64,000 nt of DNA, taken from NCBI GenBank assembly GCA_029237775.1, contig JAQZBR010000001.1, positions 62,001 to 126,000 of the forward strand, given 5' to 3'. The notes below the pieces were generated by a model that worked only from the letters and a program-made list of their open reading frames with translations, was not told the DNA's origin and did no database searches. Positions 2 through 19,446 of the stretch are shown piece after piece. This DNA is from Bacteroidota bacterium. GTDB taxonomy: Bacteria; Bacteroidota; Bacteroidia; 2-12-FULL-35-15. The stretch's first letter is position 1, and each line of letters begins with the position of its first letter. Made by a program: the position numbers and the translations under genes.

Positions 2-2765
2 ATTACGCAACCTCCTGCAATGACTGTTACAGAAACACATGTAGATGCTAATTGTAATCTATCAAACGGAAGTGTGACTGTTTCAGCTGCAGGTGGTGCC
101 GGCTCTTACACTTATAGCTGGAACACAACTCCTGTTCAGGGAACAGCTACGGTTAACTCTTTAGCCGCAGGTACTTATGTAGTGCTGGTAAAAGACGCGA
201 ATCTTTGCTCTCAGACTCTTTCGGTTACGATCGACAATTTATCCGGACCTGTAGCCAGCATAGTTAGCAGTACCAATGTTTCCTGTAACGGTGAGAACGA
301 TGGTGCTGTAACCGCAACAGTATCCGGAGGCACTGCACCGTTTACGTATTCCTGGGCTCCTTCAGGTGGAGGTCTTCCCTCAGCAAGTAATCTTACTGCA
401 GGCAGTTATACTTTAACAGCAACGGATATTAACGGGTGCTCTGCATCCACTTCCGTTACTATCACCGAACCATTGATACTGGCTATTGCCACCACTGCAA
501 CAAATCCAAGCTGCGCAGGTCAATGCAACGGAACGATCATGACTTCAACAACCGGTGGAACAGCACCATATACTTATTTATGGTCTCCCGGAGGTTTAAC
601 TACGCCAAACGCAAACGCTCTTTGTGCAGGAAGTTATACGCTACAAGTTACTGACAACAATGGATGTATAGTTTATAAAAACTTAACACTTACTGATCCA
701 CCAGCAATCACAGCCAGTACAACAACCACAAACATCACCTGCAGCGGATTATGTAACGGAAGTGCAACAGCGAATGCTCTTTCCGGAACAGGTCCTTTCA
801 CGTATCTATGGACTGATCAGAATGCTCAGACAACACAAACCGCTACCGGAATTTGTGCCGGGACTTACAGCGTGACAGTTACAGATGCCAGCGGTTGTAG
901 CACGATCGCTCAGGCAACGATAACCACACCATCCACACTTGCATTATCGATCACTTCATTTGGAAATGTTTCCTGCTTCGGGGCGTGTGATGGTTTTGCA
1001 ACGTCTGCAGTAAGCGGTGGGTCTGCTCCTTTCTCTTATAACTGGATGCCGGGAGGTACTGCCGGAGGTACTGTGAATAATCTTTGCGCAGCTACATATA
1101 CAGTAACGGTTACCGATGCTAACGGTTGTACTGCAAGCACAAATGTTACCATTACGCAGCCGAATCCTTTGGTAGCGTCTATCAGCAATACGGATATTAG
1201 CTGTTACGGTGAATGTAACGCAGAAGCAACAGCCGTTTATACGGGTGGTACCGGACCATATACCTTTTTATGGACTCCTTCATTGCAGACCACCCCAACA
1301 GCAATGGGGCTTTGTGCAGGGATTCACAACCTTTCTATAACTGATAACAATGGCTGTACAGCGAATGCTTCTGTTGTGATCGCTGAACCTACTGTTCTCG
1401 CGGTATCAACGACAACGACCAATTCAAGCTGTGGAAATCCTGACGGGACAGCATGCGCTGCAGTGATCGGTGGATCACCACCATTTACTTATTCATGGAA
1501 TGATCCGGGGATACAGCAAACCAGCTGCGCATCAAATCTTAATGCAGGAGTTTACACCATCTCCATCACCGATAATAATGGTTGCAGCGTTACGAATGTT
1601 GCAAATGTAAACGATAACCTTGCGCCTGTAGTTACTATTCCGGTAAGCTCAGACGTAACATGTAGCGGCCTGGCTAACGGAAGCGCACAGGGAAATATAA
1701 CCGGAGGTATTCTTCCTTATAGCATCAACTGGATTCCGGGCTCGCAGAATACATTGTTTGTAAACAACTTGCAAGGAGGTATCTACTCCATGGTTGTTAC
1801 CGATTCGGTTGGTTGTGTAGGATCTGCTTCAATAACTATAAATGAACCATCTGCTTTAATAAGCGGTATCACATCTTCTTTCAGCACAAGCTGTAATCTG
1901 GTTTGTGATGGTTCTGCAACGGTATTGGCCGGAGGAGGAACAGCTCCATACACTTATCTTTGGAATGATGTGAACACCCAGTCCACCTCAACAGCGAATG
2001 GATTATGCGCACAAATCTACAGTGTGACTACTACTGATGCAAACGGCTGTATCAGCACAGCTTCTGTTACTATCACCGAGCCTACAGCATTAGCAAGTTC
2101 GCTAATATCTAAAACAGATGTATCGTGTAACGGTGATAATGATGGAGAAATTAATACAAGCGTAACAGGTGGTACACCCGGTTATACGTTCAACTGGTCA
2201 CCAGCAGGGTCAGGCCCGACTATCACAAACCTTATAGCGGGTACATATCAATTAACGGTTACCGATCTGAATGGATGTTCGCAAACAGCTTCCTATACTA
2301 TAGCGGAGCCAACACCTCTTATTCTGACACCGAATTCAAATCCTACAACATGTGGAAATTCGAATGGAAGTGCCGGTGTTAGTGTTACCGGTGGAACTAT
2401 GCCTTATACATACTTCTGGTCCCCAACATCTCAGGCAACTGCTATTATCCCGAATGTTTCAGCCGGCACATACAATGTAACCGTGACCGATGCTCAAGGA
2501 TGTACGGATACAGTTAATTCAACTGTTTTAAATATTACCGGCCCGACAGCAACCACAATTTACACGGAGCCATCGTGTAACGAAATGCCTAATGGTACAG
2601 CAACAGCAATACCTTCAGGAGGCCAGCCACTTTACACATATGTCTGGAACACAACTCCTGTTCAAACCTCTCAAACAGCATCAGGATTACTTGCAGGTAC
2701 TTATATGGTAACTGTAAAAGATGCGAACCTGTGTACGACTACAGTTCCAGTTGTGATACCGCAGC
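2..2765 (+). repeat. SprB repeat array, 12 units
   Basis: Twelve in-frame units of roughly 225-240 bp encode SprB-like modules. The opening motif varies unit by unit (VDANCNLSNG, TNVSCNGEND, TNPSCAGQCN, TNITCSGLCN, and so on). Unit order corresponds one to one with units 20-31 of the array at 9355-16490. Confidence 0.85.
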
Positions 2766-4054
2766 CTATGCCACTCCAGGTGATCACTGCTCCGCGGGAT
2801 TCTATTTGTATCGGACAACTTAGCCAGATCTATGCAGTTGGATTCGGAGGAACACCTCCTTATTCGTATTCCTGGAACCCGAGCTCATTGGGTACTGCCG
2901 CAGGACCGTTCACTGTTACACCGTCAACTTCTACTAACTATACAGTAACAGTAACTGATGCCAACGGTTGTGTATCCACGCCTTCCAACTATATTGTTGA
3001 AGTATATGTTCATCCCCAGATAACAGTTACAGCAACGGATGTTACAGTTTGTGACGGCAGCTCTGTTACAATATCTGCTACAGCAAACGATGGTAACGGT
3101 GGACCTTACACTTATAACTGGAGTAATGGTCCGGCAACTCAGTCCCAAATTGTTAGTCCAACCGGTTCCACATCTGTTAACTATACAGTGACTGCAAATG
3201 ACAACAATTGTTCTGTTGCTGTAACTGATGTAGCAACCGTGACTATACATCCTCTTGCCTTCTCTGCTATCAGCACTGCAGACACTGCAGGATGTGAAGA
3301 TTTCCAGACCTCGTTTTCAGTGATCAGCAATCTTGGAACGACATTCTCCTGGGATTTTGGGGATGGGGTTTCCGGTGTGATCGGAAGCACTGTTAATCAT
3401 ACTTATATGAATTCAGGTACTTATAATGTCTCCGTGAACGTTACGACTACAGATGGTTGTACCAATACAGTAAACGAGGTAAATTATATCGATGTTTATC
3501 CTTCACCGGTTGCCGGGTTCAGCTCTTCACCGAATCCAGCGACCACAACATCACCGGTTGTTACGTTCCTGGATCAATCAATCGGAGGTGACCAGTGGGA
3601 TTGGGATTTTGCATACATGCCACCTTTCCCAACACTATTCGGAGATACACTTCAAAATCCTTCTTACTCTTATCCGGATTCAGGTATATATGTAGTTCAA
3701 CAGGTTGTAACGAACAGCTATGGCTGCAAGGACAGTATAACACACCCGGTGGAAATCACACCTGAGTATGTATTGTATGCACCGAATGCATTTACTCCGA
3801 ACAATCATGACGGATTGAATGATATGTTCATGCCGAAAGCGATGGGTGTTGATCCTGATAATTTTGAACTTTCGATCTATGACCGGTGGGGCAATCTGAT
3901 CTTCAAGAGCACTGATATCAACAAAGGTTGGGATGGAAGAGCGAATGGAGGAAGCAATATCGCACAGGCCGATGTGTATGTGTGGAAGATCAAAGGAAAA
4001 GATTACAGAGGAAACAACCATCAATATATAGGACATGTCTCTATAGTGAGGTAG
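2..4054 (+). CDS. SprB-repeat giant surface protein, 3' part (type B T9SS sorting domain)
   Basis: This frame is open from the first bases of the window, and the residues before the first ATG (position 20) read ITQPPA, which is the normal end of a SprB unit. The gene therefore begins upstream and is cut by the window edge. About 1,350 residues are visible. They comprise 12 SprB-type units of about 75 residues (each with a Cys near the start, a GGT-PYTY-W core and a GTY-VTVTDANGC end), one Ig-like unit, a PKD-like region with WDFGDG, and a C-terminal domain starting at YVLYAPNAFTP and containing DRWGN and GWDGRANGG. That last domain is the gliding-motility/type B T9SS sorting domain (TIGR04131 type). 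By family knowledge such proteins are exported by the type IX system and displayed as long filaments used in gliding or adhesion. The unit order matches the end of the giant protein at 4903-17772. Confidence 0.9.
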   Translation: MTQPPAMTVTETHVDANCNLSNGSVTVSAAGGAGSYTYSWNTTPVQGTATVNSLAAGTYVVLVKDANLCSQTLSVTIDNLSGPVASIVSSTNVSCNGENDGAVTATVSGGTAPFTYSWAPSGGGLPSASNLTAGSYTLTATDINGCSASTSVTITEPLILAIATTATNPSCAGQCNGTIMTSTTGGTAPYTYLWSPGGLTTPNANALCAGSYTLQVTDNNGCIVYKNLTLTDPPAITASTTTTNITCSGLCNGSATANALSGTGPFTYLWTDQNAQTTQTATGICAGTYSVTVTDASGCSTIAQATITTPSTLALSITSFGNVSCFGACDGFATSAVSGGSAPFSYNWMPGGTAGGTVNNLCAATYTVTVTDANGCTASTNVTITQPNPLVASISNTDISCYGECNAEATAVYTGGTGPYTFLWTPSLQTTPTAMGLCAGIHNLSITDNNGCTANASVVIAEPTVLAVSTTTTNSSCGNPDGTACAAVIGGSPPFTYSWNDPGIQQTSCASNLNAGVYTISITDNNGCSVTNVANVNDNLAPVVTIPVSSDVTCSGLANGSAQGNITGGILPYSINWIPGSQNTLFVNNLQGGIYSMVVTDSVGCVGSASITINEPSALISGITSSFSTSCNLVCDGSATVLAGGGTAPYTYLWNDVNTQSTSTANGLCAQIYSVTTTDANGCISTASVTITEPTALASSLISKTDVSCNGDNDGEINTSVTGGTPGYTFNWSPAGSGPTITNLIAGTYQLTVTDLNGCSQTASYTIAEPTPLILTPNSNPTTCGNSNGSAGVSVTGGTMPYTYFWSPTSQATAIIPNVSAGTYNVTVTDAQGCTDTVNSTVLNITGPTATTIYTEPSCNEMPNGTATAIPSGGQPLYTYVWNTTPVQTSQTASGLLAGTYMVTVKDANLCTTTVPVVIPQPMPLQVITAPRDSICIGQLSQIYAVGFGGTPPYSYSWNPSSLGTAAGPFTVTPSTSTNYTVTVTDANGCVSTPSNYIVEVYVHPQITVTATDVTVCDGSSVTISATANDGNGGPYTYNWSNGPATQSQIVSPTGSTSVNYTVTANDNNCSVAVTDVATVTIHPLAFSAISTADTAGCEDFQTSFSVISNLGTTFSWDFGDGVSGVIGSTVNHTYMNSGTYNVSVNVTTTDGCTNTVNEVNYIDVYPSPVAGFSSSPNPATTTSPVVTFLDQSIGGDQWDWDFAYMPPFPTLFGDTLQNPSYSYPDSGIYVVQQVVTNSYGCKDSITHPVEITPEYVLYAPNAFTPNNHDGLNDMFMPKAMGVDPDNFELSIYDRWGNLIFKSTDINKGWDGRANGGSNIAQADVYVWKIKGKDYRGNNHQYIGHVSIVR

Positions 4055-4456: not shown

Positions 4457-4855
4457 ATGACTATTTTATTCAAAAAGACCTTATCGTTTATCACGCTTTT
4501 ACTCTCAGTTACCTTTTTAAATGCACAGGAAAATGATGGCCCGAGAGAATCAAACAATAAGACATATTTTATCTCAGATAAAGGAAGCATTTCTGATGTT
4601 CAACCATATATAGAGGCATTGAATAATGCCAACCTTAAAAACCACAGGTTAAAGAATAAACACTACACTATCGTTTTCGAAGGAGGTCTTAAAGTCGAAG
4701 TTCTTTCGGCACGCGAGATAGCTGCAGCCGGTTGGAACGTTAACCCTTCAGATTACCCCGAGCAATTTGAACTATCCCGTAATGAACCGGTTTTTGCTCT
4801 TGGTCCGGACAATTTTATTATAGAATATCATACATCAGTAACCAAGCATAATTAA
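4457..4855 (+). CDS. Small secreted protein of unknown function
   Basis: The 132-residue product has a clear Sec signal peptide (MTILFKKTLSFITLLLSVTFLNAQ, described in two parts: basic start, hydrophobic core residues 7-20, cleavage near NAQ-E at 23-24). The mature part of about 108 residues is mixed polar with no cysteine and no motif I recognise; a hydrophobic beta-rich stretch (YTIVFEGGLKVEVLSA) lies near the middle. It is placed between two giant SprB-repeat genes and ends 47 bp before the second one, so the two probably share a transcript. It may be a periplasmic or surface accessory of the adhesin, but this rests on position alone. Confidence 0.7.
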   Translation: MTILFKKTLSFITLLLSVTFLNAQENDGPRESNNKTYFISDKGSISDVQPYIEALNNANLKNHRLKNKHYTIVFEGGLKVEVLSAREIAAAGWNVNPSDYPEQFELSRNEPVFALGPDNFIIEYHTSVTKHN

Positions 4856-4902: not shown

Positions 4903-7900
4903 ATGAAAAAGTCATTACTTGTCATTGTTTCTTTAATTGCATTACTAAACTTCAGCGCTTTTGCGCAGCCTGCCAATAATAATTGTAGTCAGGCTCAGAG
5001 TCTCGGAACACTTCCTGCTCCGGGAGCGTGTAACGGAAGTATTCAAAATGGTGCACCTGTAACAGTATCCGGAACTACTGTTGGCGCTACCGCTACGAAC
5101 CCGGCCATCAGTATCCTGAATTGTCAGGGAGGTAATGCAGATCAGTTTGCTCCGGCACCAGATGTGTGGTACTCATTTGTCGCAAGTGGTACAACAGTAA
5201 ATATTACAATGGCAGCAGGTGCTCTGGCAAATCCGAATATCGGTGTATGGACAGGAACATGTAACAATTTAACTCCCTGGGGATGTGCCATCGGGGCAGC
5301 CAACGGAAGTTTGACATCAACATTTGCACAAACTACGGTAGGTCAAACGTATTATATACAGGTTAGTGGCGGTACAGCGACAGGGACAGGAACTTTCAGC
5401 CTCTCCGTTGATAATGATATAGATTGTAACAATTGTAATCAGGTTTCCTCGATGACGGCATCGCCTACTCCTGTGAACGGGGCTTATTTGCCAGGCCAGA
5501 CTGTTCACTTTTGTTATACTGTCTCCAACTGGGTGATCCAGAACACTAACTGGTTTCATGGTGTTCAAATTACTATGGGAGCAGGATGGACAGGTACAGT
5601 ATCCAATCCTGATCCTGCTAATACTGTTCAGAACATTGCGGGCCCCGGGTTTGACGGAGCCTGGTATTATTCTGCTTCAGGGTTAGGTACAGGTTACGGT
5701 GCCGGTTTTTATTTTGAGACAGTTCAAAATGGGACAGACGCAGGAAATAATTTCGGTGATAACGGAAATGGCCCCTGGACCTTTTGCTGGGACCTGACAG
5801 TTGATCCGGGCTGCGCCCCGGGTTCAGATCTTTCGGTAACGATTAACACTTCCGGAGATGGAGAGTCGGGAAGCTGGTCGAGCACAGGTTGTACCGGAGA
5901 TGCAGCATTTGTATTCACCGCTCAGGGATCATGTTGCCCACCGACAATGACAAGCACACCTTCTTGTTCCCCAGGGAATAACGGAACTGCAACTGCCACA
6001 CCTGTTGGTGCAGGAACATATACTTATTCATGGGCTCCGGGAGGACAAACAACTCAAACTGCTACCGCGCTCGCTTCAGGCACGTACACGGTTACAGTAA
6101 CCAATTCAACAACGTTATGTGCTGTTACAAATACAGTTGTTGTTGCAGCAAGCACAGCACCAATTTCGAATGCCGGTGCTGATATATCCATTTGTTCCGG
6201 TGCTTCGGGAAGCTTAGGAGCTGCTGCTGTTGCAGGAAATACATATTTGTGGTCCCCTACAACTGGTTTGAGCAGCAGCACTGTTGCGAATCCAACTGTA
6301 ACATTAACAAATACAGGAACAGCGAACACGACAACGACCTATACGGTAACCACCACTAATACGGCAACTACCTGTACTTCCACAGATATAGTAATTGTAA
6401 CCGTGAAACCGATTCCTGTGTCGGTTGCAGGAGCTGACATAGCATATTGTTCAGGACTTACAGGTACGATTGGAACAGCAGCAACAACAGGTTATAGCTA
6501 TTCATGGTCACCGACAACCAGCTTAAGCAGTGGAACTGTTGCTAACCCAACAGTTTCATTAACTAACACAGGTACTACACCAATTAACACTACTTATACC
6601 GTTACAACCACCCTTAATGGTTGTACATCAACGGATGCAGTCATAGTAACTGTTAATCCTGTTCCTACATCCACATTCAATCAATCACCTAATCAGTGTT
6701 TAACCGGCAACAGCTTCAATTTTACAAACACGGGGAGTTCAGGTGCTGGTTATACTCAAACCTGGAATTTCGGTGGAGCAACAACAAACACTTCTACAGC
6801 AGTAAGTCCAACGGGAATTACTTATGCTGCAGCTGGAACATATACTATTACTCATACTGTAACCGGTCCGGGAGGTTGTGTTTCAACAACAACAAGCTCA
6901 GTTACTGTATATCCTTTACCTGTTGTCACTGTTACCTCTCCTACAATTTGTTCAGGACAAACAGCTACGATGACAGCTTCGGGAGCTTCCACTTATACCT
7001 GGAGCGCAGGAGCAACCTCGGCTGGTGCAACTGCAACGGCTTCACCAACAACAACGACCAGCTACACTGTTACAGGTACCAGTACTAATGGTTGTATAGC
7101 GACAGCAGTTGCTACTGTTACGGTTACCCCGCTACCGGTAATCACAGTAGCACCAATAACAATTTGTGCCGGCACACCGGGAACACTTACGGCAAGCGGA
7201 GCTGCAACTTATTCGTGGGCTGCTGCAACCGGACTTAGCGCAACAACAGGCGCTTCCGTTACAGCAAATCCTCCTTCTACAACAACATATACTGTAACAG
7301 GTACATCAGCCGCAGGATGTGTTGGAACAACTACAGTTGTTGTTACCGTTAATCCAATTCCGGTTACAACTGTAAACTCCCCTACTATTTGTTCCGGACA
7401 AACTGCAACTCTAACTGCAGCTGGCGCTACAACTTATGCATGGACTAGCGGATTAAGCGCTACAACAGGAACTTCAGTTACAGGAGCCCCTACAACAACC
7501 ACAAGCTATACAGTTACAGGAACATCTTTAGGTTGTTCAAGCACAGCGGTTGCTACTATTACAGTTAATCCTTTACCAACGGTAACTGTAGCACCTATTA
7601 CTATCTGTTCAGGGACTTCAGGAACATTAACTGCTTCAGGAGCCGCAACTTATACATGGGCTAACGCAACAGGGCTAAGTGCAACAGCCGGTGCTTCTGT
7701 TACTGCTAACCCGACTGCTACCACAACCTATACTGTTACAGGAACTTCTGCTGCCGGTTGTATCAATACCGCTACAGTGGTTGTCACCGTTACACCTTTA
7801 CCTACGATCACGGTACCTCCGATAACCATCTGTTCCGGAACTTCAGGAACTTTGACTGCTTCGGGAGCCGCTACATATACATGGGCAAATGCAACAGGAT

Positions 7901-10900
7901 TAAGCGGAACAACAGGAACTTCTGTTACAGCTAATCCAACTGCAACTACAACATATACTGTTACCGGAACTTCTGCTGCAGGATGTGTGAACACAGCTAC
8001 GGTAGTTGTTAGTGTAACACCATTACCTACTATTACAGTTGCACCAATAACAATTTGTGCGGGTGCATCAGGAACTATGACCGCTTCAGGAGCTGCAACT
8101 TATACATGGGCTAACGCCACAGGATTGAGCGGTACAACGGGAACTTCTGTAACTGCCAACCCTTCCGCGACAACAACATACACCGTTACAGGTACAACTG
8201 CCGGAGGATGCGTTAACACCACAACTGTAGTGGTTACCGTAACACCACTGCCGGTTATCACTGTGACAAACCCAACAATATGTCCAACGCAAACGGCAAC
8301 ACTAACAGCCAGTGGTGGAACTACCTACACCTGGTCACCCGGATTAAGCTCAACTACAGGATCTTCTGTAACAGGTTCTCCTTCATCAACTACAAGCTAT
8401 ACAGTGACAGGTACTACTTCAGGATGTTCTTCAACTGCAGTTGCTACTATCACAATCGGTGGAAGTATTACACCTACGGTTAACTCTCCTATTATCTGTG
8501 CAGGACAAACTGCAACTTTAACAGCCAGCAATGCAACAACATTTACCTGGACTGCAGGACTTAGCTCAACTACCGGAGCGACTGTTACAGGATCGCCTGC
8601 AACTACAACTTCATATACAGTAACTGGAAATGCTGCAGGATGTACAGGAACTGCAGTGGCAACGATTACTGTGAATCCGTTACCTGTTGTTTCAGTTCCA
8701 CCGGTTACGATTTGCTCCGGTTCATCTGGAACATTAACCGCTTCCGGTGCAGCAACATATTCATGGGCGCCATCAACAGGCCTTAGTGCAACAACAGGAA
8801 CATCCGTTACTGCTAACCCAACTTCAACAACAACTTATACAGTTACAGGAACATCTGCCGCAGGATGCGTTAATACAACTACTGTGGTTGTGACTGTGAA
8901 TCCATTACCGACAATCACTGTAGCGCCCATAACAATTTGTACAGGTATTGCAGGAACGTTAACTGCAAGCGGAGCAGCTACCTATTCATGGGCTGCAGCT
9001 ACAGGATTGAGTGCAACAACAGGAGCAAGTGTTTCTGCTAATCCGGCTGCAACCACTACTTATACTGTTACAGGAACTTCTGCTGCAGGATGTGTTAATA
9101 CGGCCTCGGTTATTGTAACTGTAAATCCATTACCTACTATTACTGTAGCACCAATTACTATCTGTACCGGAATTGCAGGAACATTAACTGCTTCGGGTGC
9201 CAATACCTATTCGTGGTCACCTGCCACAGGATTAAGTGCAACAACAGGAAGCTCAGTATCGGCTAACCCTGCAGCAACTACAACTTACACAGTTACAGGA
9301 ACAGCAGCTACGGGATGTATCAACACAACTACCGTTGTCGTAACTGTTACACCTCCGGCAACTCTTGCAATAGCAAAAGTGAATGTTTCTTGTTTTGGCG
9401 GAAGCAACGGTTCTGCAACAGTAACTCCTACAGGTGGAACAACTCCTTATACATATTCATGGTCTCCTTCGGGTGGATCAGGAGCTACTGCCAGCTCATT
9501 GACTGCAGGAACATATACTGTAACAGTAACAACAAATAACGGATGTGTTTCAACAACATCAACAACAATAACGCAGCCTGCAGGTATGACGCTTACAATG
9601 TCTGCTGTTAATGCAACATGCGGAGCTGCCAATGGCCAGGCTTCTGTAGCTGTATCAGGCGGAACGGCAGCATACACATACTCATGGGCTCCATCGGGTG
9701 GAACAGCTTCAACAGCAACAGGACTTCTTGCAGGTTCATATACAGTTACTGTTACTGATGCAAATAGTTGTACGAGCACCAACTCAGTTGCTGTGAACAA
9801 TGCTTTATCACCAAGTGCCAGTACAACGGTCATTGCAAATGTTTCATGTTTTGGAGGTAATAACGGTTCTGCATCTGTAAGTATTTCAGGTGGAACTTCT
9901 CCTTATACCCAATCATGGTCGCCAAGCGGTGGAACCGGAATTACTGCCTCTTCTTTAGCAGCCGGAACTTATACCGTTACCGTTACAGACGGTAATGGCT
10001 GTATTGTCACAGCAAATGCGACAATCACAGAACCACCATTATTAACTGCTTCAACTACAACTATCGATGCAACATGTTTCGGAGGTGCAACAGGAAGCGC
10101 AACTGTAACAGCTGGTGGCGGTACTCCGGGATATACTTATTCCTGGGCTCCTTCAGGTGGAACCGGTGTGACTGCAAGTTCATTAGCTGCAGGAACATAT
10201 ACCGTAACTGTGACTGATACCAAAGGATGTATAAGAACCGCGACAGCAGTAATATCTCAGCCGACAATCATTACAGCAACAACAAGCAATACACCTGTAT
10301 CATGTTTTGGTGGAAATAACGGAACTGCAAGTGTTGTAGCGGGCGGTGGCACTCCTGCATATTCGTATGCATGGGCTCCGGGTGGAAATACAAACCCAAC
10401 AGCCTCCGGATTAACTTTCGGAACTTATACTGTTACGGTTACGGACCTTAACGGATGTATCAGAACAGCTTCTACTACAATAACTCAGCCCACAGTTCTT
10501 GCGGTTACTACAACCAATGTAAGCTCAACATGCGGTTTATCTAATGCGTCTGCCACAGCAACTGCTACAGGCGGAACAGGTGCATACTCTTACTCCTGGA
10601 CACCTTCAGGTGGAACATCTGCTTCAGCTACCGGATTAACTGCAGGTTCTTATACTGTAACAGTAACTGATGTGAATGGTTGTACAGCCACATCTTCAAC
10701 AACTATTAATGATCTTTCGGGTTTAACAGCCTCTATAACTGCTCAGACAAATGTGAGCTGCTTCGGTGGTAACAATGGTACTGTTACTGTTACTGCTTCC
10801 GGATCAACTTCTCCTTATACTTATTCCATCAACGGAGGAACAACTTATCAGGCAAGCGGAACTTTCAGCGGATTGATCGCAGGAAGCTATACCGTTATTG

Positions 10901-13900
10901 CTAAAGATGCAAATGGTTGTACACTCTCTGTTCCGGTTATAATCACCGAACCTTCTCTGTTGTCAGCTTCCGCAACTGAAACAGATGTTCTTTGTTTTGG
11001 CGGAGCTACAGGAACCGCAACAGCAAGTGCTACGGGCGGAACTCCTAATTATACATATTCGTGGGCTCCATCAGGTGGAACAGGAATCACTGCAAATTCA
11101 TTGACTGCAGGAACGTACACGGTTACAGTTACTGATTCAAAAGGTTGTATTAAAACGGCAACCACTATTGTGAATCAACCTCCTGTTATGACCTCAACGA
11201 TCAGCAACACTCCTGTATCGTGTTTTGGAGGAAATAACGGTACTGCGAGCGTAGTGGCAGGCGGAGGAACTCCGGGATACACATATTCATGGGCTGCATC
11301 TGGTGGAACATCAGATAACGCTTCCAATTTATCTGCCGGAACTTATACAGTTACCATCACAGATCTGAACGGTTGTATAAGAACAGCATCAACTATCATT
11401 ACTCAACCGACTCAGGTAACTGTAAGTGCTACCAAAGCAGATGCAACTTGCGGAGCTGCGAACGGTACAATCACTGCAACGGGCACGGGCGGAACTCCTG
11501 CCTATACTTATTCTATTAACGGAACAACTTTTCAGGCAGGAACATCATTCACTTCATTAGCTGCCGCTACGTACACAGTTACAGTTAAAGATGCAAACGG
11601 TTGTACGAATACATCAACTATCACTATTAATGACCTGTCGGGTTTGGTTGCCTCTATCACGACTCAAGCTAATGTAAGCTGCTTCGGAGGAAATGACGGA
11701 TCAGTAACGGTATTAGCTTCAGGATCCACAGGCCCTTATACGTATTCTAACAATGGCGGAACAACATTCCAGGCCAGCGGAACTTTCAGCTCACTTACCT
11801 CAGGAAGCTTTACAGTCATCGCAAAAGATGCTAACGGTTGTACTGTGTCAGTTCCTGTTACAATTACAGAACCTACATTATTGACTGCAGCTATCACAGC
11901 ACAAACAAATATTCTTTGTTTCGGGAACAGTACAGGAAGTGTTACAGTTGCCGGGAATGACGGAACTCCGACCTATACATACTCGATCAACGGAACAACA
12001 TTTGTCGCAAGCGGAACTTTCTCTTCACTTGCTGCAGGCGCTTATACAATAACAGTTAAAGACAGCAAAGGATGTACAACCACTGTTCCTGTTACTATAA
12101 CACAGCCTCCGGTATTGGCTGCAAGCATCACGTCACAGACAAACAATATCTGTTTCGGTGGAGCAGCGGGAAGTGTTACTGTAACTGCAACAGGTGGAAC
12201 CGTTGCGTATGCCTACAGTCTTAACGGAGGAACCTCACAGGCGTCAGGATCATTTAATAACCTGACAGCAGGCTCATATACTGTTACTGTAACAGATGCC
12301 AACACATGTACTGCTACAGTCCCGGTAATTATCACAGAACCTACAATGGTAACTGTAACGGCAACTAAAGCAGATGCTACCTGCGGAGCTCCAAACGGGA
12401 CGGTAACTGCTACCGGAGCAAACGGAACACCAGCTTATACTTATTCCATTAATGGAACAACTTTCCAGTCAAGCACAACATTCACCGGCCTTGCAGCATC
12501 AACTTATACTGTGACAGTTAAGGATGCAAACGGATGTACAAATACAACAACAATAAGTGTTCTTGACCTTAGCGGACTTACTGCTTCAATAACATCACAA
12601 ACGAACGTTACATGTAATGGACTGGCGAACGGAACCGTTACCATCACGGCAAGCGGTTCAACCGGTCCGTATAATTATGCGCTGGGAGCAGGAGCTTTCG
12701 GCCCATCAGGTACATTTAATGGACTTGCTGCTTTATCATACACTGTTACGGTTCAGGATGCAAACTCATGTACGGTAACTGTTCCTGTCTTGATCACCCA
12801 ACCTCCTGTACTTGCAGGTTCTGTCAGCGCTCAGACAAACATTACCTGCTTTGGAGCTAATAATGGAACTGTAACTGTCACATCAAGTGGCGGTACTCCA
12901 ACTTACCTCTATTCTATAGATGGCGGGGCATTCGGAGCTTCAGCTACTTTCAGTGGTTTAACTCCTGGTGCACACACCGTTTCAGTAAGAGATGCTAACG
13001 GTTGTACTGTTACCATTCCGGTAACGATCACGGAGCCGACAGCCCTTACACTTGCCACTTCTTCAGTGAATGCAATCTGTACCGCTGCAAATGGTTCAGC
13101 GACAGTAGTTGCCTCAGGTGGTACTCCAAATTATACGTACGCATGGTTACCGGGTAATCAGATCACACCGACTGCTTCCAACATTACAGCGGGTAATTAT
13201 GCAGTGCAGGTAACAGATGCAAACGGTTGCGTTCAAACGGCAAACGTAAGTGTTGGATCAAGCCCGGGAGGAACAGCTTCCATTGCTTCCTCTAACAATG
13301 TAACATGTACGGGAGCTTTAGACGGGAATGCAACGGTAACAATGAGTGCGGCTGCTACTCCACCGTATACATACTCCTGGTCTCCTTCAAATCAAAATAC
13401 GGTTACGGCATACAACCTCGGTCCTGCTACATATACTGTAACAGTGACAGATGGAAACGGCTGTATCTCATCGACCAACGTAACAATCACAGAACCTTCT
13501 GCTATCACTAATTCATTCACGAATACCAACGTAAGCTGCAATGCGGGTAACAACGGTATGTCGGCAGTGAACGTTGCAGGCGGCACGCCTCCTTATTCTT
13601 ATTTATGGGTTCCCACAAATCAAACAACTCCAACAGCGGGAGGTTTGATCGCAGGGACATATACTGTTACGATCACCGATGCTAACGGTTGTATTAAAAC
13701 TGCAACAACTGCAATCACAGAGCCTGTGGCAATGGGATTAACTGAAACGCATGTTGACGCAAACTGTAACCTGTCAAACGGAAGTGCAACGGTTATGGTA
13801 AATGGCGGTGTCGGACCATATACATATTCATGGAGCACTTTACCAGTACCTCAGACTACTGCAACAGCAACAGCGCTTGCAGCTAATACTTACGTTGCAA

Positions 13901-16900
13901 CTGTTACAGATGCGAACTCATGCTCTCAGACAATTTCAGTCACTGTAAATAACCTCGCAGGACCTGTTGCAACAGTATTCTCTTCCACAAATGTTTCGTG
14001 TAACGGACTTTGTGATGGAAATGCTACGGTAACGATCTCTGGAGGTACTGCGCCTTACACTTATGCATGGACACCTTCCGGAGGATCACTTCCTACAGCC
14101 ACCAATCTGTGTGCAGGAACTTATACGCTGAATGCGACAGATGTGAACGGATGTGCTGCATCAACATCGGTAACAATTACAGAACCTGCTGTGTTAGCTA
14201 CAACCTATACTTCAGTTAACCCTTCATGCTTTGGTGGATCTAACGGTTCAATCACATCTGCTACGACAGGTGGAACAACGCCATACACTTATCTATGGTC
14301 TCCGGGATCTACTACAACTAGCAATCTTACAGGATTATCGGCCGGAACATACATGCTTCAGGTAACTGATGAGAACGGCTGTTTAACTGTTACAAATATA
14401 ACACTGAACAATCCTCCGGCTCTTACAGCATCGACTACTACAACCAATGTTACATGTAACGGTTTATGTAATGGAACTGCAACAGTGAATGTTTTAAATG
14501 CTACAGGTCCGATCAACTACCTATGGACTGATGTTAATGTGCAAACTATCCCAACAGCTACTGCCCTTTGTGCGGGAACATATTCTGTAACTGCAACAGA
14601 TGCAAACGGTTGTATTGTAACAACAACAGCAACAATTACGACTCCGGCTTCTATCTCAGTTAACATCACAGCTTTGGGACATGTGTCCTGCTATGGTGCT
14701 TGTGACGGGTTTGCAACGGCAGCTGTAACGGGTGGAACTGCTCCTTTCAGCTACATGTGGGCTCCGAGCGGAACTGCAGGCTCATCGGTGAATAACCTTT
14801 GCGCTGCTAACTACACAGTAACAGTTACAGATGCTAACGGATGTACCGCATCAACAACAGTTCTGATCAATCAACCGAATCCGCTTGTTGCAAGTATCAC
14901 TAATACTGATGTAACATGCTATGGAGATTGTGATGCTCAGGCAACAGTTGTTTATACCGGTGGTACAGGTCCATACACATTCTTATGGAGCAATTTCCAG
15001 ACTACTCCGACTATTGATTCAGTATGCGCAGGCTTACTAAACGTTAATATTACCGATTCAAAAGGTTGTGTGGCGAGCAGTGCAGCCGTAGTTGAAGAGC
15101 CTACTATTTTAGCAGTTACAACAACAACGGTCAATTCGACCTGCGGTGTTGCAAATGGTACAGCGTGCGCTTCAATAACAGGAGGATCGCCACCATTCAT
15201 TTACTCATGGAATGATCCTGCAACGCAAGCAAACAGCTGCGCTACAGGATTGAATGCGGGAGTTTATACGATCTCTATCACTGACAGTCATAATTGCAGC
15301 GTTACCAATGTTGCGAATGTAAACGATGACAACGCTCCGATTGTAACCATTCCATCAAGCACGGATGTTACCTGCTTTGGTCTGGCAAACGGAAGTGCAC
15401 AGGGTAACATTACAGGTGGTGTGATTCCTTACACTATTGGATGGACTCCGGGCGGACAAACGAACACATTCGCCAATAACCTTTCAGGAGGTATCTATTC
15501 ACTTATAGTTACGGATTCAGTTGGCTGTACAGGATCTGCTTCAGTTACTATCAATGAACCAATGCAATTGTTGAGCGGAATTGTTTCAACGATCAACACT
15601 TCATGTAACTTAGGTTGCGATGGTTCAGCGACAGTGCTTGCGGGCGGAGGAACAGCGCCATATACATACTTATGGAATGATGTTAACACTCAAACAACGA
15701 CCACAGCAAACAACTTGTGCGCTCAGGCTTATACGGTAACGGTGACGGATGCAAACGGTTGTACCGCTTCCACTTCCACAACGGTTACTCAGCCTTCTGC
15801 AATTGCAGTAAACGTAGTTCAAAGTACTAATGTATCATGTAACGGAGGAAGTAACGGAAGCATCGATGTTGCTGTAACGGGTGGAAGTCCGGGATACACT
15901 TATGACTGGTTGCCTAATGTGGGATCAAGCTCATCAGTAACTAATCTTGCTGCGGGAACTTATACTTTAACTGTTACTGACGTAAGAGGATGTGCAAAGG
16001 TAATCACAGTTGTTATCTCAGAGCCTACCCCTGTTGTGTTGACACCGAACTCAAACTTCAGCACCTGCGGTAATTCAAATGGTAGTGCCGGAGTGAGTGT
16101 ACTGGGCGGAGTTAGCCCATACTCTTATGCATGGTCGCCAACACCGGGCTCAACTGCTATCATCACTAATATACCGGCAGGAGTTTACACTGTAACTGTT
16201 ACTGATAATAATGGTTGTATCTCTTCAGCAACTTCAACTGTTGCTGATTCAGCAGGACCTACAATACAGCAGCCGATTACTTTCACAAGACCTTCTTGTG
16301 CTGAATTATCGAATGGAACTGCGACAGTAGTTGCAACAGGCGGTCAGCCCCAGTATTCTTACTTGTGGAATACAACCCCTATTCAGACCACGCAAACTGC
16401 TTCAGCATTGCATGCCGGTCCGTACCAAGTAACTGTCACCGATCAAAATGGCTGCAGTGTTACAGGAACAGTGATTGTTACACAACCACAACCGTTGACG
16501 ATACCTCTTATTCCAATAGACACAATTTGTATTGGGCAGCTTACTCAAATTTATGGAAGTGCGCAAGGCGGAACACCGCCATATACATTCACATGGAATC
16601 CTTCGTCTGTAGGAACCGGACCAGGTCTGTTTAATGTAAGCCCTGTTTCACCAACAACCTATACTTTTACAGTCGTTGATGCTAACATGTGTGTGGCACA
16701 GCCGCAGGGTTTTGTGACAGTTCATGTTAATCCGCAGATCACTGTTACAGCAACAGATGTATCTGTTTGTGATGGAACTGCCGTAACAATATCTGCTACA
16801 GCAAATGGTGGTGCAGGTGCACCATACACATACACATGGAACAATGGAGCTGTTGGAGCGTCACAAACGGTAACTCCAACAGGTGCAACATCAATAGACT

Positions 16901-17772
16901 ACACAGTGACTGCAAATGACAATGGCTGCTCCGTAGCTGTTACTGATGTGGCTACGGTTACAATTCATCCTCTTGCGGTAGGATTCATAACACCTGGATC
17001 TCAGTCGGGCTGTGAAGATTTCACAACAACATTTACCGGATTGAGCAATTCAGGGGTATCCTACGACTGGAATTTCGGGGATGGTACTGGAACTTACAAT
17101 GGAAATCCAATGGATCATACTTTCACAAATGCAGGCACATATAGCATCAGCCTTGATATTACCACTGCGGATGGTTGTGTTACCACTGTAACTAATCCGA
17201 ATTCAATTCAGGTTAATCCGGCACCAACTGCAGCATTCGACTACACACCGAAACCTGTGCTGCTTTCTGATCCGACAGTAACATTTGTTGACCAGTCGAT
17301 TGGTGGAAATGATTGGTTGTATGATTTCATTTACATCAACAATACCATTCCGATCTACACGGACACATTACAGAATCCTACATTTGTTTACCCTGATACC
17401 GGAATCTATGTTGTGCAGCAGGTTGTGTTCAACTCCTTCGGTTGTACGGATACTACTTATAGAAATATTGAAGTAGAACCTGAATATGTATTGTATGCAC
17501 CAAATGCATTCACTCCGACTAACCACGATGGAGTAAATGATGTGTTCATGGTGAAGGGAATCGGAATTGATCCTGACAACTTTACAATGATGATCTTCGA
17601 TCGTTGGGGTAATGAGATCTTCAAAACCACTGACCTTGCAAAAGGTTGGGATGGAAGAGCAAACGGAGGAAGCAATGTTGCGCAGATAGATGTTTATGTG
17701 TGGAAGGTGATCACTAAAGATTATCGAGGTGATGAACACTCATATACAGGACATGTGAGTTTAGTTAAATAA
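4903..17772 (+). CDS. Giant SprB/Ig-repeat surface adhesin (4,289 aa, type B T9SS sorting domain)
   Basis: The start is fixed by a signal peptide (residues 1-21, ending SAFA-QP). Domain order is as follows. An N-terminal beta-sandwich (about 22-175) has the DVWYSF motif common to such proteins. A Cys/Trp-rich domain (about 176-345) follows. Then come Ig/PKD-like units, including 11 nearly identical units of about 74 residues (TICSGTSGTLTASGAATY type, DNA 6931-9354), and about 31 SprB units (9355-16490). The protein ends with an Ig-like unit, PKD-like modules with WNFGDG, and a gliding-associated type B T9SS sorting domain (from about residue 4195, YVLYAPNAFTP to GHVSLVK). By family knowledge it is exported across the outer membrane by the type IX system, as SprB is in gliding Flavobacterium. 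Predicted size is over 400 kDa. No enzymatic domain is visible. The match to the upstream gene shows tandem duplication. Confidence 0.93.
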   Translation: MKKSLLVIVSLIALLNFSAFAQPANNNCSQAQSLGTLPAPGACNGSIQNGAPVTVSGTTVGATATNPAISILNCQGGNADQFAPAPDVWYSFVASGTTVNITMAAGALANPNIGVWTGTCNNLTPWGCAIGAANGSLTSTFAQTTVGQTYYIQVSGGTATGTGTFSLSVDNDIDCNNCNQVSSMTASPTPVNGAYLPGQTVHFCYTVSNWVIQNTNWFHGVQITMGAGWTGTVSNPDPANTVQNIAGPGFDGAWYYSASGLGTGYGAGFYFETVQNGTDAGNNFGDNGNGPWTFCWDLTVDPGCAPGSDLSVTINTSGDGESGSWSSTGCTGDAAFVFTAQGSCCPPTMTSTPSCSPGNNGTATATPVGAGTYTYSWAPGGQTTQTATALASGTYTVTVTNSTTLCAVTNTVVVAASTAPISNAGADISICSGASGSLGAAAVAGNTYLWSPTTGLSSSTVANPTVTLTNTGTANTTTTYTVTTTNTATTCTSTDIVIVTVKPIPVSVAGADIAYCSGLTGTIGTAATTGYSYSWSPTTSLSSGTVANPTVSLTNTGTTPINTTYTVTTTLNGCTSTDAVIVTVNPVPTSTFNQSPNQCLTGNSFNFTNTGSSGAGYTQTWNFGGATTNTSTAVSPTGITYAAAGTYTITHTVTGPGGCVSTTTSSVTVYPLPVVTVTSPTICSGQTATMTASGASTYTWSAGATSAGATATASPTTTTSYTVTGTSTNGCIATAVATVTVTPLPVITVAPITICAGTPGTLTASGAATYSWAAATGLSATTGASVTANPPSTTTYTVTGTSAAGCVGTTTVVVTVNPIPVTTVNSPTICSGQTATLTAAGATTYAWTSGLSATTGTSVTGAPTTTTSYTVTGTSLGCSSTAVATITVNPLPTVTVAPITICSGTSGTLTASGAATYTWANATGLSATAGASVTANPTATTTYTVTGTSAAGCINTATVVVTVTPLPTITVPPITICSGTSGTLTASGAATYTWANATGLSGTTGTSVTANPTATTTYTVTGTSAAGCVNTATVVVSVTPLPTITVAPITICAGASGTMTASGAATYTWANATGLSGTTGTSVTANPSATTTYTVTGTTAGGCVNTTTVVVTVTPLPVITVTNPTICPTQTATLTASGGTTYTWSPGLSSTTGSSVTGSPSSTTSYTVTGTTSGCSSTAVATITIGGSITPTVNSPIICAGQTATLTASNATTFTWTAGLSSTTGATVTGSPATTTSYTVTGNAAGCTGTAVATITVNPLPVVSVPPVTICSGSSGTLTASGAATYSWAPSTGLSATTGTSVTANPTSTTTYTVTGTSAAGCVNTTTVVVTVNPLPTITVAPITICTGIAGTLTASGAATYSWAAATGLSATTGASVSANPAATTTYTVTGTSAAGCVNTASVIVTVNPLPTITVAPITICTGIAGTLTASGANTYSWSPATGLSATTGSSVSANPAATTTYTVTGTAATGCINTTTVVVTVTPPATLAIAKVNVSCFGGSNGSATVTPTGGTTPYTYSWSPSGGSGATASSLTAGTYTVTVTTNNGCVSTTSTTITQPAGMTLTMSAVNATCGAANGQASVAVSGGTAAYTYSWAPSGGTASTATGLLAGSYTVTVTDANSCTSTNSVAVNNALSPSASTTVIANVSCFGGNNGSASVSISGGTSPYTQSWSPSGGTGITASSLAAGTYTVTVTDGNGCIVTANATITEPPLLTASTTTIDATCFGGATGSATVTAGGGTPGYTYSWAPSGGTGVTASSLAAGTYTVTVTDTKGCIRTATAVISQPTIITATTSNTPVSCFGGNNGTASVVAGGGTPAYSYAWAPGGNTNPTASGLTFGTYTVTVTDLNGCIRTASTTITQPTVLAVTTTNVSSTCGLSNASATATATGGTGAYSYSWTPSGGTSASATGLTAGSYTVTVTDVNGCTATSSTTINDLSGLTASITAQTNVSCFGGNNGTVTVTASGSTSPYTYSINGGTTYQASGTFSGLIAGSYTVIAKDANGCTLSVPVIITEPSLLSASATETDVLCFGGATGTATASATGGTPNYTYSWAPSGGTGITANSLTAGTYTVTVTDSKGCIKTATTIVNQPPVMTSTISNTPVSCFGGNNGTASVVAGGGTPGYTYSWAASGGTSDNASNLSAGTYTVTITDLNGCIRTASTIITQPTQVTVSATKADATCGAANGTITATGTGGTPAYTYSINGTTFQAGTSFTSLAAATYTVTVKDANGCTNTSTITINDLSGLVASITTQANVSCFGGNDGSVTVLASGSTGPYTYSNNGGTTFQASGTFSSLTSGSFTVIAKDANGCTVSVPVTITEPTLLTAAITAQTNILCFGNSTGSVTVAGNDGTPTYTYSINGTTFVASGTFSSLAAGAYTITVKDSKGCTTTVPVTITQPPVLAASITSQTNNICFGGAAGSVTVTATGGTVAYAYSLNGGTSQASGSFNNLTAGSYTVTVTDANTCTATVPVIITEPTMVTVTATKADATCGAPNGTVTATGANGTPAYTYSINGTTFQSSTTFTGLAASTYTVTVKDANGCTNTTTISVLDLSGLTASITSQTNVTCNGLANGTVTITASGSTGPYNYALGAGAFGPSGTFNGLAALSYTVTVQDANSCTVTVPVLITQPPVLAGSVSAQTNITCFGANNGTVTVTSSGGTPTYLYSIDGGAFGASATFSGLTPGAHTVSVRDANGCTVTIPVTITEPTALTLATSSVNAICTAANGSATVVASGGTPNYTYAWLPGNQITPTASNITAGNYAVQVTDANGCVQTANVSVGSSPGGTASIASSNNVTCTGALDGNATVTMSAAATPPYTYSWSPSNQNTVTAYNLGPATYTVTVTDGNGCISSTNVTITEPSAITNSFTNTNVSCNAGNNGMSAVNVAGGTPPYSYLWVPTNQTTPTAGGLIAGTYTVTITDANGCIKTATTAITEPVAMGLTETHVDANCNLSNGSATVMVNGGVGPYTYSWSTLPVPQTTATATALAANTYVATVTDANSCSQTISVTVNNLAGPVATVFSSTNVSCNGLCDGNATVTISGGTAPYTYAWTPSGGSLPTATNLCAGTYTLNATDVNGCAASTSVTITEPAVLATTYTSVNPSCFGGSNGSITSATTGGTTPYTYLWSPGSTTTSNLTGLSAGTYMLQVTDENGCLTVTNITLNNPPALTASTTTTNVTCNGLCNGTATVNVLNATGPINYLWTDVNVQTIPTATALCAGTYSVTATDANGCIVTTTATITTPASISVNITALGHVSCYGACDGFATAAVTGGTAPFSYMWAPSGTAGSSVNNLCAANYTVTVTDANGCTASTTVLINQPNPLVASITNTDVTCYGDCDAQATVVYTGGTGPYTFLWSNFQTTPTIDSVCAGLLNVNITDSKGCVASSAAVVEEPTILAVTTTTVNSTCGVANGTACASITGGSPPFIYSWNDPATQANSCATGLNAGVYTISITDSHNCSVTNVANVNDDNAPIVTIPSSTDVTCFGLANGSAQGNITGGVIPYTIGWTPGGQTNTFANNLSGGIYSLIVTDSVGCTGSASVTINEPMQLLSGIVSTINTSCNLGCDGSATVLAGGGTAPYTYLWNDVNTQTTTTANNLCAQAYTVTVTDANGCTASTSTTVTQPSAIAVNVVQSTNVSCNGGSNGSIDVAVTGGSPGYTYDWLPNVGSSSSVTNLAAGTYTLTVTDVRGCAKVITVVISEPTPVVLTPNSNFSTCGNSNGSAGVSVLGGVSPYSYAWSPTPGSTAIITNIPAGVYTVTVTDNNGCISSATSTVADSAGPTIQQPITFTRPSCAELSNGTATVVATGGQPQYSYLWNTTPIQTTQTASALHAGPYQVTVTDQNGCSVTGTVIVTQPQPLTIPLIPIDTICIGQLTQIYGSAQGGTPPYTFTWNPSSVGTGPGLFNVSPVSPTTYTFTVVDANMCVAQPQGFVTVHVNPQITVTATDVSVCDGTAVTISATANGGAGAPYTYTWNNGAVGASQTVTPTGATSIDYTVTANDNGCSVAVTDVATVTIHPLAVGFITPGSQSGCEDFTTTFTGLSNSGVSYDWNFGDGTGTYNGNPMDHTFTNAGTYSISLDITTADGCVTTVTNPNSIQVNPAPTAAFDYTPKPVLLSDPTVTFVDQSIGGNDWLYDFIYINNTIPIYTDTLQNPTFVYPDTGIYVVQQVVFNSFGCTDTTYRNIEVEPEYVLYAPNAFTPTNHDGVNDVFMVKGIGIDPDNFTMMIFDRWGNEIFKTTDLAKGWDGRANGGSNVAQIDVYVWKVITKDYRGDEHSYTGHVSLVK
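6931..9354 (+). repeat. Tandem Ig-like repeat array, 11 units
   Basis: Eleven in-frame units of about 220 bp encode near-identical modules (P-TIC-G-SGTLTASGAATY-W, ATTTYTVTGTSAAGC, VTVNPLP). Two subtypes occur, one with TICSGQTATLTA and a shorter middle and one with TICSGTSGTLTA. Protein identity between neighbours is much higher than DNA identity because many third codon positions differ. Confidence 0.85.
9355..16490 (+). repeat. SprB repeat array, about 31 units
   Basis: About 31 in-frame units of 220-240 bp each carry a CFGG-NG/CNG/CGAANG-type opening and a GTYTVTVTDANGC-type end. Units 7 and 10-16 (about 10.73-10.95 kb and 11.4-13.04 kb) have a YSINGTTF-type core lacking the tryptophan of the usual SWAPSGG core, so two module subtypes are mixed. 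Confidence 0.85.
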
Positions 17773-17793
17773 TAAATAATAAAATAGTGAATG

Positions 17794-17826
17794 AAAAAGA
17801 TGGGCCGAGAGGCTCATCTTTTTTTG
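17794..17826 (+). terminator. Rho-independent terminator after the giant adhesin
   Basis: The stem aaaaagatgggcc (17794-17806) pairs with ggctcatcttttt (17811-17823) around a gaga loop and is followed by a T run. It is 21 bp after the adhesin stop codon. The A-rich left side could make it work in both directions. Confidence 0.85.
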
Positions 17827-17857
17827 TTTTAGATGGGTGGATTTATAATTACATTTG
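17824..17857 (+). promoter_or_regulatory. Bacteroidota promoter for the HWPGA membrane protein
   Basis: TACATTTG at 17850-17857 matches the -7 consensus TAnnTTTG, with TTG at 17824-17826, 23 bp upstream. The -33 element lies in the T tract of the preceding terminator. The box covers a TTG codon that would otherwise extend the next ORF, which argues for the ATG at 17891. Confidence 0.55.
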
Positions 17858-17890: not shown

Positions 17891-18451
17891 ATGAAAACAG
17901 AAAAGACACTTGCACTTTTATTTTTTATCGGAGTTCTTTTTAAGGTTATGCACTGGCCCGGAGCAGGTCCGCTAATCGTTGTTTCCTTATCAACCTTAGC
18001 AATTCTGTATTTCCCTTTGGCGTTTTATTTTTTCTGTGACAAAACAATCAAACATCAAAACCTTCCACTTTCCGTTGTTTCAGGTTTCTTTTTATCTATT
18101 ATACCAATCGGACTAGCATTCAAACTTCAACACTGGCCAGGAGCTCAGATATATTTACTAATAGGCATTATTACTTCACCCATTATCTTAACTACAGTGT
18201 ATGTGTTGCGGGAACGCGCACCTATCAACTTAAGCGTTTACTATAATAATATGCTGAAACGCACAGCTGTGTCATTCATATTTGCAACAATTTTGTATTT
18301 TACCCCAAATGACAGACTGATAATAATTCAACATTGGGACGATCCTGAATTTGCAAGATTAAAAATTCTGTATTTTAGTGATCCTGGGAACGCTGAATAC
18401 GAAAGACAGTATAATGACTATATCATTAAGCTGGAAAGAAAAGACCAATAA
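17891..18451 (+). CDS. Small membrane protein with duplicated GldL-like HWPGA hairpins
   Basis: The 186-residue product has four predicted membrane segments arranged as two hairpins. Each hairpin carries the same motif: FKVMHWPGA (HWPGA at 21-25) and FKLQHWPGA (81-85), exactly 60 residues apart. This motif resembles the first membrane segment of GldL, the inner-membrane motor partner of GldM in the type IX/gliding machine. The acidic residue that follows in the second GldL membrane segment is not obvious here. A hydrophobic segment (125-137) and a charged tail follow. I chose ATG 17891 over an in-frame TTG at 17855 because that TTG lies in a promoter box. Placement just after a giant T9SS substrate suggests a surface or export role, but that is inference. 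Confidence 0.75.
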   Translation: MKTEKTLALLFFIGVLFKVMHWPGAGPLIVVSLSTLAILYFPLAFYFFCDKTIKHQNLPLSVVSGFFLSIIPIGLAFKLQHWPGAQIYLLIGIITSPIILTTVYVLRERAPINLSVYYNNMLKRTAVSFIFATILYFTPNDRLIIIQHWDDPEFARLKILYFSDPGNAEYERQYNDYIIKLERKDQ

Positions 18452-18489: not shown

Positions 18490-19446
18490 ATGAAAAAAAC
18501 TCTACTCCTCTTCTCCTTCATTTTCCTGCTTTTAACATCTTCCGTTAAAGCTCAGCTTATCAATCCCGGCTTCGAAACATGGACAAACGATATGCTGGTT
18601 CCAACAGCGATGAATCCAAACAGTGGGAATGATACCTACGGCTGGTGGGACTTCAACTATTTTAACAGCTCTTTCCTCGGGAGCAGCCCGGTATCGGTTA
18701 GCAGAAGCTCTGATACGGTACACGGTGGGAATTATTCGGTAAGGGTTGAAACTAAAGTTTATACTCCGACTTCCTGGAATATGTACAGATATTGGGGAAT
18801 TCCTTATATAGGACATGAATACAATGATACACTAGGGATCTTGTTTGATGGTAAGGTGAATGTAACCAACCAGACATTCAAGCCGGGAATAGCCTGCACA
18901 CAACATTTAACGCAGTTTAAATTCTTTTACCAATATCGCCCTAACGGAAATGATACTGCTGAATGTCGCGTTGCTTTACTTAGCTCAGGTTCTCTGGTTG
19001 CAGGTGGTGTTTTTAAAACAGGTGCAGCTACCGGAAGTGCCGGCTGGCAGCAAGCTGTTGTGAATTTTACTTATATAAATAACTTAACGCCTGATACATT
19101 ATACATCCTTTACAGCTCTTCCTCCCTTGACTACAAACCGAAAGCAGGAAGCGTTCTTTGGATAGATGATGCAAGTGTTTCTTTTACAACCGGGGTCGAA
19201 GAGTTTATGGCTGAAGATCAACGGATGGTTTTCCCTAATCCTTCAAACGGTTCTTTCTCTGTCAGAAATAACAGCAAGGAGATGCAGACAGTTGAAGTTT
19301 TCAATGTGATCGGAGAGATGATCTATTCGTCAAGAAACTCTCAATCCGTGAAACACATCGATATCTCTGAAGCACCGAAGGGTATTTATTTTGTGAGAAT
19401 TCTGACAGGCGGCAATCAACACACGGAGAAAATTGTTGTGCGGTAA
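18490..19446 (+). CDS. Secreted T9SS type A cargo protein, PCMD/jelly-roll-like
   Basis: The 318-residue product has a signal peptide (1-21, ending VKA-Q). The mature start LINPGFETWTND and the later VLWIDDASVSF are typical of carbohydrate-binding-like beta-sandwich domains of the PCMD type found in Bacteroidota. Residues from about 247 (MVFPNPSNGSFSV) to the end (KIVVR), including VFNVIGEMIYS and APKGIYFVRI, form a type A T9SS sorting domain. The protein should be exported across the outer membrane and anchored or released. No catalytic motif is visible, so a binding role is more likely than an enzyme. It starts 38 bp after the HWPGA gene and may share its transcript. Confidence 0.82.
   Translation: MKKTLLLFSFIFLLLTSSVKAQLINPGFETWTNDMLVPTAMNPNSGNDTYGWWDFNYFNSSFLGSSPVSVSRSSDTVHGGNYSVRVETKVYTPTSWNMYRYWGIPYIGHEYNDTLGILFDGKVNVTNQTFKPGIACTQHLTQFKFFYQYRPNGNDTAECRVALLSSGSLVAGGVFKTGAATGSAGWQQAVVNFTYINNLTPDTLYILYSSSSLDYKPKAGSVLWIDDASVSFTTGVEEFMAEDQRMVFPNPSNGSFSVRNNSKEMQTVEVFNVIGEMIYSSRNSQSVKHIDISEAPKGIYFVRILTGGNQHTEKIVVR

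Follow-up and report, generated by a model that had tools for sequence, protein, structure and literature searches.

A double GldL-type hairpin protein lacking the proton-coupling glutamate and its GldM-, PadR- and SpoIIE-linked relatives in Bacteroidota

The locus and its neighbouring genes

The window analysed here is a 64,000-nt stretch of the genome of a Bacteroidota bacterium (contig JAQZBR010000001.1). On its forward strand, a coding sequence at 17891..18451 (+) specifies a 186-aa protein with two GldL-type hairpins; it starts with ATG, and an alternative TTG start at 17855 is less likely. The upstream neighbour, which is not part of the feature, is a giant repeat adhesin with a CHU_C-like end (4903..17772, +). 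An intrinsic terminator with a 14-bp stem and a T run (17793..17824, +) lies between the two genes. The consensus of the Bacteroidota −7 promoter element is TAnnTTTG; the octamer TACATTTG at 17850..17857 (+) fits it and is presumably such an element, and TTTG at 17823-17826 (+) is a possible −33 element, both putative assignments being read from the sequence. After a 38-bp gap follows a type IX secretion system (T9SS) substrate with a Por_Secre_tail domain (18490..19446, +), possibly carried on the same transcript. Further upstream, a 132-aa ORF at 4457-4855, for which no convincing family match was found, is flanked by two giant proteins (20-4054 and 4903-17772) whose CHU_C-like ends are nearly identical.

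The earlier note on this DNA had linked the protein to the adhesin beside it, and this link did not survive comparison. Gene order in the window genome is in its favour, as is one relative (locus L101) encoded downstream of an SprB-like gene. Against a partnership with the giant adhesin stand the terminator between the two genes and the position of the closest ortholog (54–56% identical), which is flanked by metK and a pheT-like gene (both named from their sequences, metK by Pfam as well). Short relatives are likewise not enriched beside T9SS substrates: in a motif-based test on a small sample (37 short relatives), such genes accounted for 3/64 adjacent ORFs versus 16/235 other ORFs in the same loci (p=0.77). 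Moreover, at least 150 Por_Secre_tail matches occur in the window genome, so neighbours of this kind are common. We therefore rejected the adhesin-partner reading as highly improbable.

Comparison with the closest ortholog gave dN 0.35 and dS about 3.4, that is, dN/dS of about 0.1 with dS near saturation, which marks the window gene as a real gene under purifying selection. A decayed or neutral GldL duplicate without function would suit the patchy distribution within the genus, where one close ortholog was found, but this origin is very unlikely given the selection estimate, the conserved motifs and the better fit of the hairpins to a family other than GldL (see below).

The window protein against canonical GldL

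The motifs FKVMHWPGA and FKLQHWPGA begin at residues 17 and 77 of the window protein, confirming the ORF, its coordinates and the exact 60-residue spacing reported previously. Translated in all six frames, the 64-kb window contains HWPGA only at these two sites. Aligned to each other, the two repeats score 66, whereas 2000 shuffles average 24 (sd 5) and peak at 46, as expected of the internal duplication that had been proposed. A search with the GldL N-terminal domain, suggested at the same time, was significant: Pfam GldL_N (PF22827) matches both repeats in two stretches (E=2.5e-14; 53.7 bits against a curated cut-off of 24 bits), placing the protein in this superfamily. Against the GldL equivalog model TIGR03513 it reaches 33.4 bits, below the whole-protein cut-off of 68.3 bits for GldL/PorL. 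This score, together with the non-acidic residues described below, rules out a plain GldL. The genome also encodes a canonical 263-aa GldL with gldM adjoining on contig C3; the gene order in the window places no gldM beside the window gene. Contig C6 (86603-88147) encodes another GldM of full length, which exceeds the cut-off with 352.9 bits and has no GldL gene beside it in the stretch examined.

An AlphaFold2 model built with 58 aligned rows (pLDDT 88.8) contains five long helices (residues 2-19, 25-47, 58-79, 85-109 and 112-137) followed by three short ones. Hairpin 1 (residues 2-47; 17894..18031, +) comprises TM1, the FKVMHWPGA turn (17939-17965) and TM2, and hairpin 2 (residues 58-109; 18062..18217, +) comprises TM3, the FKLQHWPGA turn (18119-18145) and TM4. 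According to model and alignment, TM5 (residues 112-137; 18224..18301, +) sits where longer relatives have a GldM-type helix and, going by this position, would be the equivalent of the GldM helix. In the model, a helical C-terminal tail of 49 residues (138-186; 18302..18448, +), whose membrane side we infer, takes the place of the first periplasmic domain of GldM, which is absent. The former description as a four-segment membrane protein is thus wrong, since five membrane helices and a tail are predicted. Foldseek found no significant fold match to the model in the PDB. Arg124 in TM5 is invariant in a five-row ortholog alignment (A2), and GldM also has an invariant arginine, Arg9, immediately ahead of its helix; the parallel is suggestive only.

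In alignment with the GldL of PDB 7sau, STEAV is replaced by STLAI, so that Leu36 occupies the position of Glu49 in hairpin 1, and the corresponding residue of hairpin 2 is non-acidic. The absence of a charged second-segment residue had been noted correctly, as had that of the GldL cytoplasmic domain, which is borne out by the equivalog profile comparison. Across 58 proteins of the wider family, none of 116 hairpins has an acidic residue in the Glu49 column, whereas all 26 GldL listed have one; more generally, acidic residues midway along TM2 or TM4 are absent from the family, single exceptions aside. The HWPGA turn, for its part, is more uniform in family hairpins than within GldL. Published work found Glu49 of GldL to be indispensable and conserved without exception; whether it is protonated governs GldL–GldM contacts and the conformation of GldM, and the E49A substitution abolishes motor function (PMC8986121). 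Were the window protein a small working motor or ion channel in its own right, with another residue in place of the glutamate, this could account for the way in which the hairpins, TM5 and invariant Arg124 recall the GldL–GldM arrangement, but the family-wide absence of the acidic residue and the effect of the equivalent E49A exchange make this a very unlikely alternative.

A wider double-hairpin family with GldM-type and SpoIIE modules and PadR neighbours

A large Bacteroidota family shares the Glu-less double hairpin with repeats about 60 residues apart, and the window protein has the same features: two HWPGA-type hairpins at this spacing, each with a non-acidic residue at the Glu49 position. 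With the window protein as query, a scan of 84,980 species genomes yielded 79 loci, among them loci of Fluviicola, Flavobacterium caeni, Taibaiella lutea and Aquimarina mytili; proportions among these loci are not population frequencies, because the sample was selected by query peptide patterns. The hairpins lie at residues 105/165 or 23/83, about 60 apart, in nearly all long members. Of the ten relatives scanned first, five carry GldL_N and GldM_1st in one polypeptide, above or near the Pfam cut-off, one of them (L066) together with SpoIIE. Among 75 relatives scanned, Pfam matched GldL_N in all, GldM_1st in 28 (best 6.6e-27) and SpoIIE in three. A set of members that mostly lack a Pfam GldM match could nevertheless be aligned with canonical GldM (hhalign probability 95%, E=2e-8). 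In the AlphaFold2 model of the PadR-linked member L176 (pLDDT 89), helices precede the membrane part, and the first 16 Foldseek matches in the PDB are all GldM/PorM (probability 1.0). Counted among the matches listed in a class-wide survey, hairpin-part matches to the fusion profile, distinct from canonical GldM, occur in more than 60 of 295 genomes and about 20 family-level groups.

Against hairpin models of the long family, the window hairpins score 53-55 and 31-39 bits, and against the GldL model 37 and 32 bits (true GldL reaches 106 bits with its own model). The window protein therefore groups with the long family, although less clearly through its second hairpin, for which the family model has only a modest advantage over the GldL model (39 vs 32 bits).

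Other architectures were encountered as well. Two proteins of ~900 aa (L140:2791-5541 and L141:1786-4491) combine a long N-terminal part containing many predicted membrane segments with GldL-type hairpins and a TPR-like tail. Another relative in the window genome has three HWPGA-type hairpins followed by a terminal TM (L108:6575-7402, contig C5), and other members of the genus have counterparts of it (L048, L051 and L053). Divergent hairpin proteins at L105:7034-7570 and L107:7173-7700 have the same neighbours in two species, lysC-like and lysA-like genes named from sequence.

Long relatives are recurrently linked to genes of PadR-type regulators. PadR (PF03551) matched the directly upstream ORF in 41 of 77 loci (best 9.6e-22), and in 14 further loci this ORF encodes a GldL_N plus GldM_1st protein, several such tandems opening with a PadR-like gene. 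By motif, PadR occurs within four collinear upstream genes in 49 of 79 loci, with about six more PadR-like by eye. Long relatives share such a neighbouring stand-alone PadR gene with HAAS–PadR dyads. In these proposed signalling pairs, an alternative to two-component systems, a HAAS helical domain joined to various membrane sensors works with a stand-alone PadR; the accessible parts of these descriptions name no GldL- or GldM-type sensor (PMC11237479, PMC12419801). The N-terminal domain of the long forms occupies the HAAS position, as a candidate HAAS domain, and is predicted to be helical. It matched none of the Pfam HAAS types (DUF1700, DUF1129 and DUF1048) and nothing in the PDB; perm_prefix_1 matched it in three of 25 members (best 3.2e-5). 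In its PadR-linked form, this cytosolic domain measures 83 aa and has a conserved D-H-x-C-C motif (alignment A7), and PRD was matched weakly in 6/25 members (best 4.7e-5).

The window genome contains a third hairpin protein (L109:6828-9223, contig C8), which ends in a coiled coil and a linker resembling those that precede SpoIIE; a TPR–SpoIIE phosphatase gene lies 29 bp ahead of it. In short-form loci, profile search found no PadR neighbour, and a GldM-type fusion neighbour occurs in one alone, L104, where it overlaps a short gene like that of the window protein. A signalling role of the window protein itself is accordingly speculative.

The distribution of the family bears on its main rival explanation, in which the window protein regulates the GldLM motor or acts as its decoy, inserting into the GldL ring or binding the GldM helix and thereby blocking or tuning rotation, with effects on T9SS secretion or gliding. 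The uniformly kept HWPGA turn would suit such a role, and the window genome has a canonical GldL and two GldM for it to act on. T9SS is near-universal where the family occurs: SprA is found in 286 of 295 class genomes surveyed, a background against which co-occurrence with T9SS says little, and the family is absent from those complete genomes examined that have no GldM/SprA. The one SprA-negative genome with a fusion (G481) has at least 150 sorting-domain matches, so its assembly probably lacks the T9SS genes. On the other side, no locus examined encodes T9SS motor genes alongside family members, the window protein is patchy within its genus, and long relatives, which bring a GldM-type domain of their own, have no need of GldM. 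We regard motor regulation as unlikely, though less so than the other alternatives, and the relatives point to signalling rather than to a motor decoy.

Proposed role and comparison with known systems

These comparisons demonstrate homology across the family, loss of the glutamate, ring–axle fusions and linkage to PadR and PP2C. What had first been read from the sequence holds for the GldL-hairpin homology, the tandem duplication and the lost glutamate, and fails for the adhesin. We consider it probable that the window protein belongs, as a stand-alone protein without motor function, to a family derived from GldL–GldM or from a common ancestor, with long forms acting as membrane receptors and the short form as a passive subunit. 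Within this explanation, we infer that the long forms are most likely membrane receptors; that the short form serves as a passive membrane subunit of a receptor assembly is the most speculative part.

Mechanistically, the family would derive from, or share an ancestor with, the T9SS/gliding motor pair, keeping two GldL-type hairpins per chain without the proton-coupling glutamate. The hairpins of long forms may pack around the GldM-type helix, and the resulting motor-type module could sense the state of the membrane or periplasm and relay it to the N-terminal helical domain paired with PadR, or to a C-terminal SpoIIE/PP2C phosphatase. With its membrane part and short tail but no output domain, the window protein would pack with itself or with a longer relative. 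The more specific proposal, that a proton-driven GldL–GldM motor was turned into proton-free one-chain receptors controlling PadR and PP2C, with the window protein as their minimal output-less subunit, is tentative and falls somewhat short of an even chance.

If this is correct, parts of a rotary secretion motor have been reused as a sensor domain across Bacteroidota, many proteins now known only by GldL_N or GldM_1st matches would gain testable functions, and assembly could be studied apart from proton coupling in a GldL–GldM arrangement that naturally lacks the glutamate. A further caution is that a short GldL_N match does not justify annotation as GldL. The open-access literature yielded no link of GldL or GldM to PadR or SpoIIE and no GldL-like paralogs, in agreement with the earlier remark that such a protein had not been seen described.

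Compared with GldL/PorL (TIGR03513; PDB 7sau, 6ys8), the window protein has a homologous two-helix hairpin and the FKxxHWPGA turn in common, but differs in its two hairpins per chain, missing Glu49 equivalent, additional TM5 and tail, lack of a cytoplasmic domain, location outside the gldLM locus and score under the family cut-off. Long relatives share the GldM-type helix and first periplasmic domain with GldM/PorM (PF12081, TIGR03517; PDB 7saz, 7sau) and lack the three distal GldM domains, whereas the window protein has only the helix and a short tail at this point. Like HAAS–PadR dyads, as far as the accessible text of Ravi et al. 2024 (PMC11237479) describes them, long relatives have a stand-alone PadR gene directly ahead and a cytosolic N-terminal helical domain before the membrane part, but their sensor is GldL–GldM-like; the window protein has neither the N-terminal domain nor an adjacent PadR, its neighbours being an adhesin and a T9SS substrate. 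Finally, relatives of 719 aa (L177) and 715 aa (L234) end in a coiled coil and SpoIIE, as do SpoIIE/PP2C serine phosphatase receptors, yet unlike those receptors they have a GldL–GldM module as their input part, and the window protein differs from all of these in carrying the membrane part without a phosphatase.
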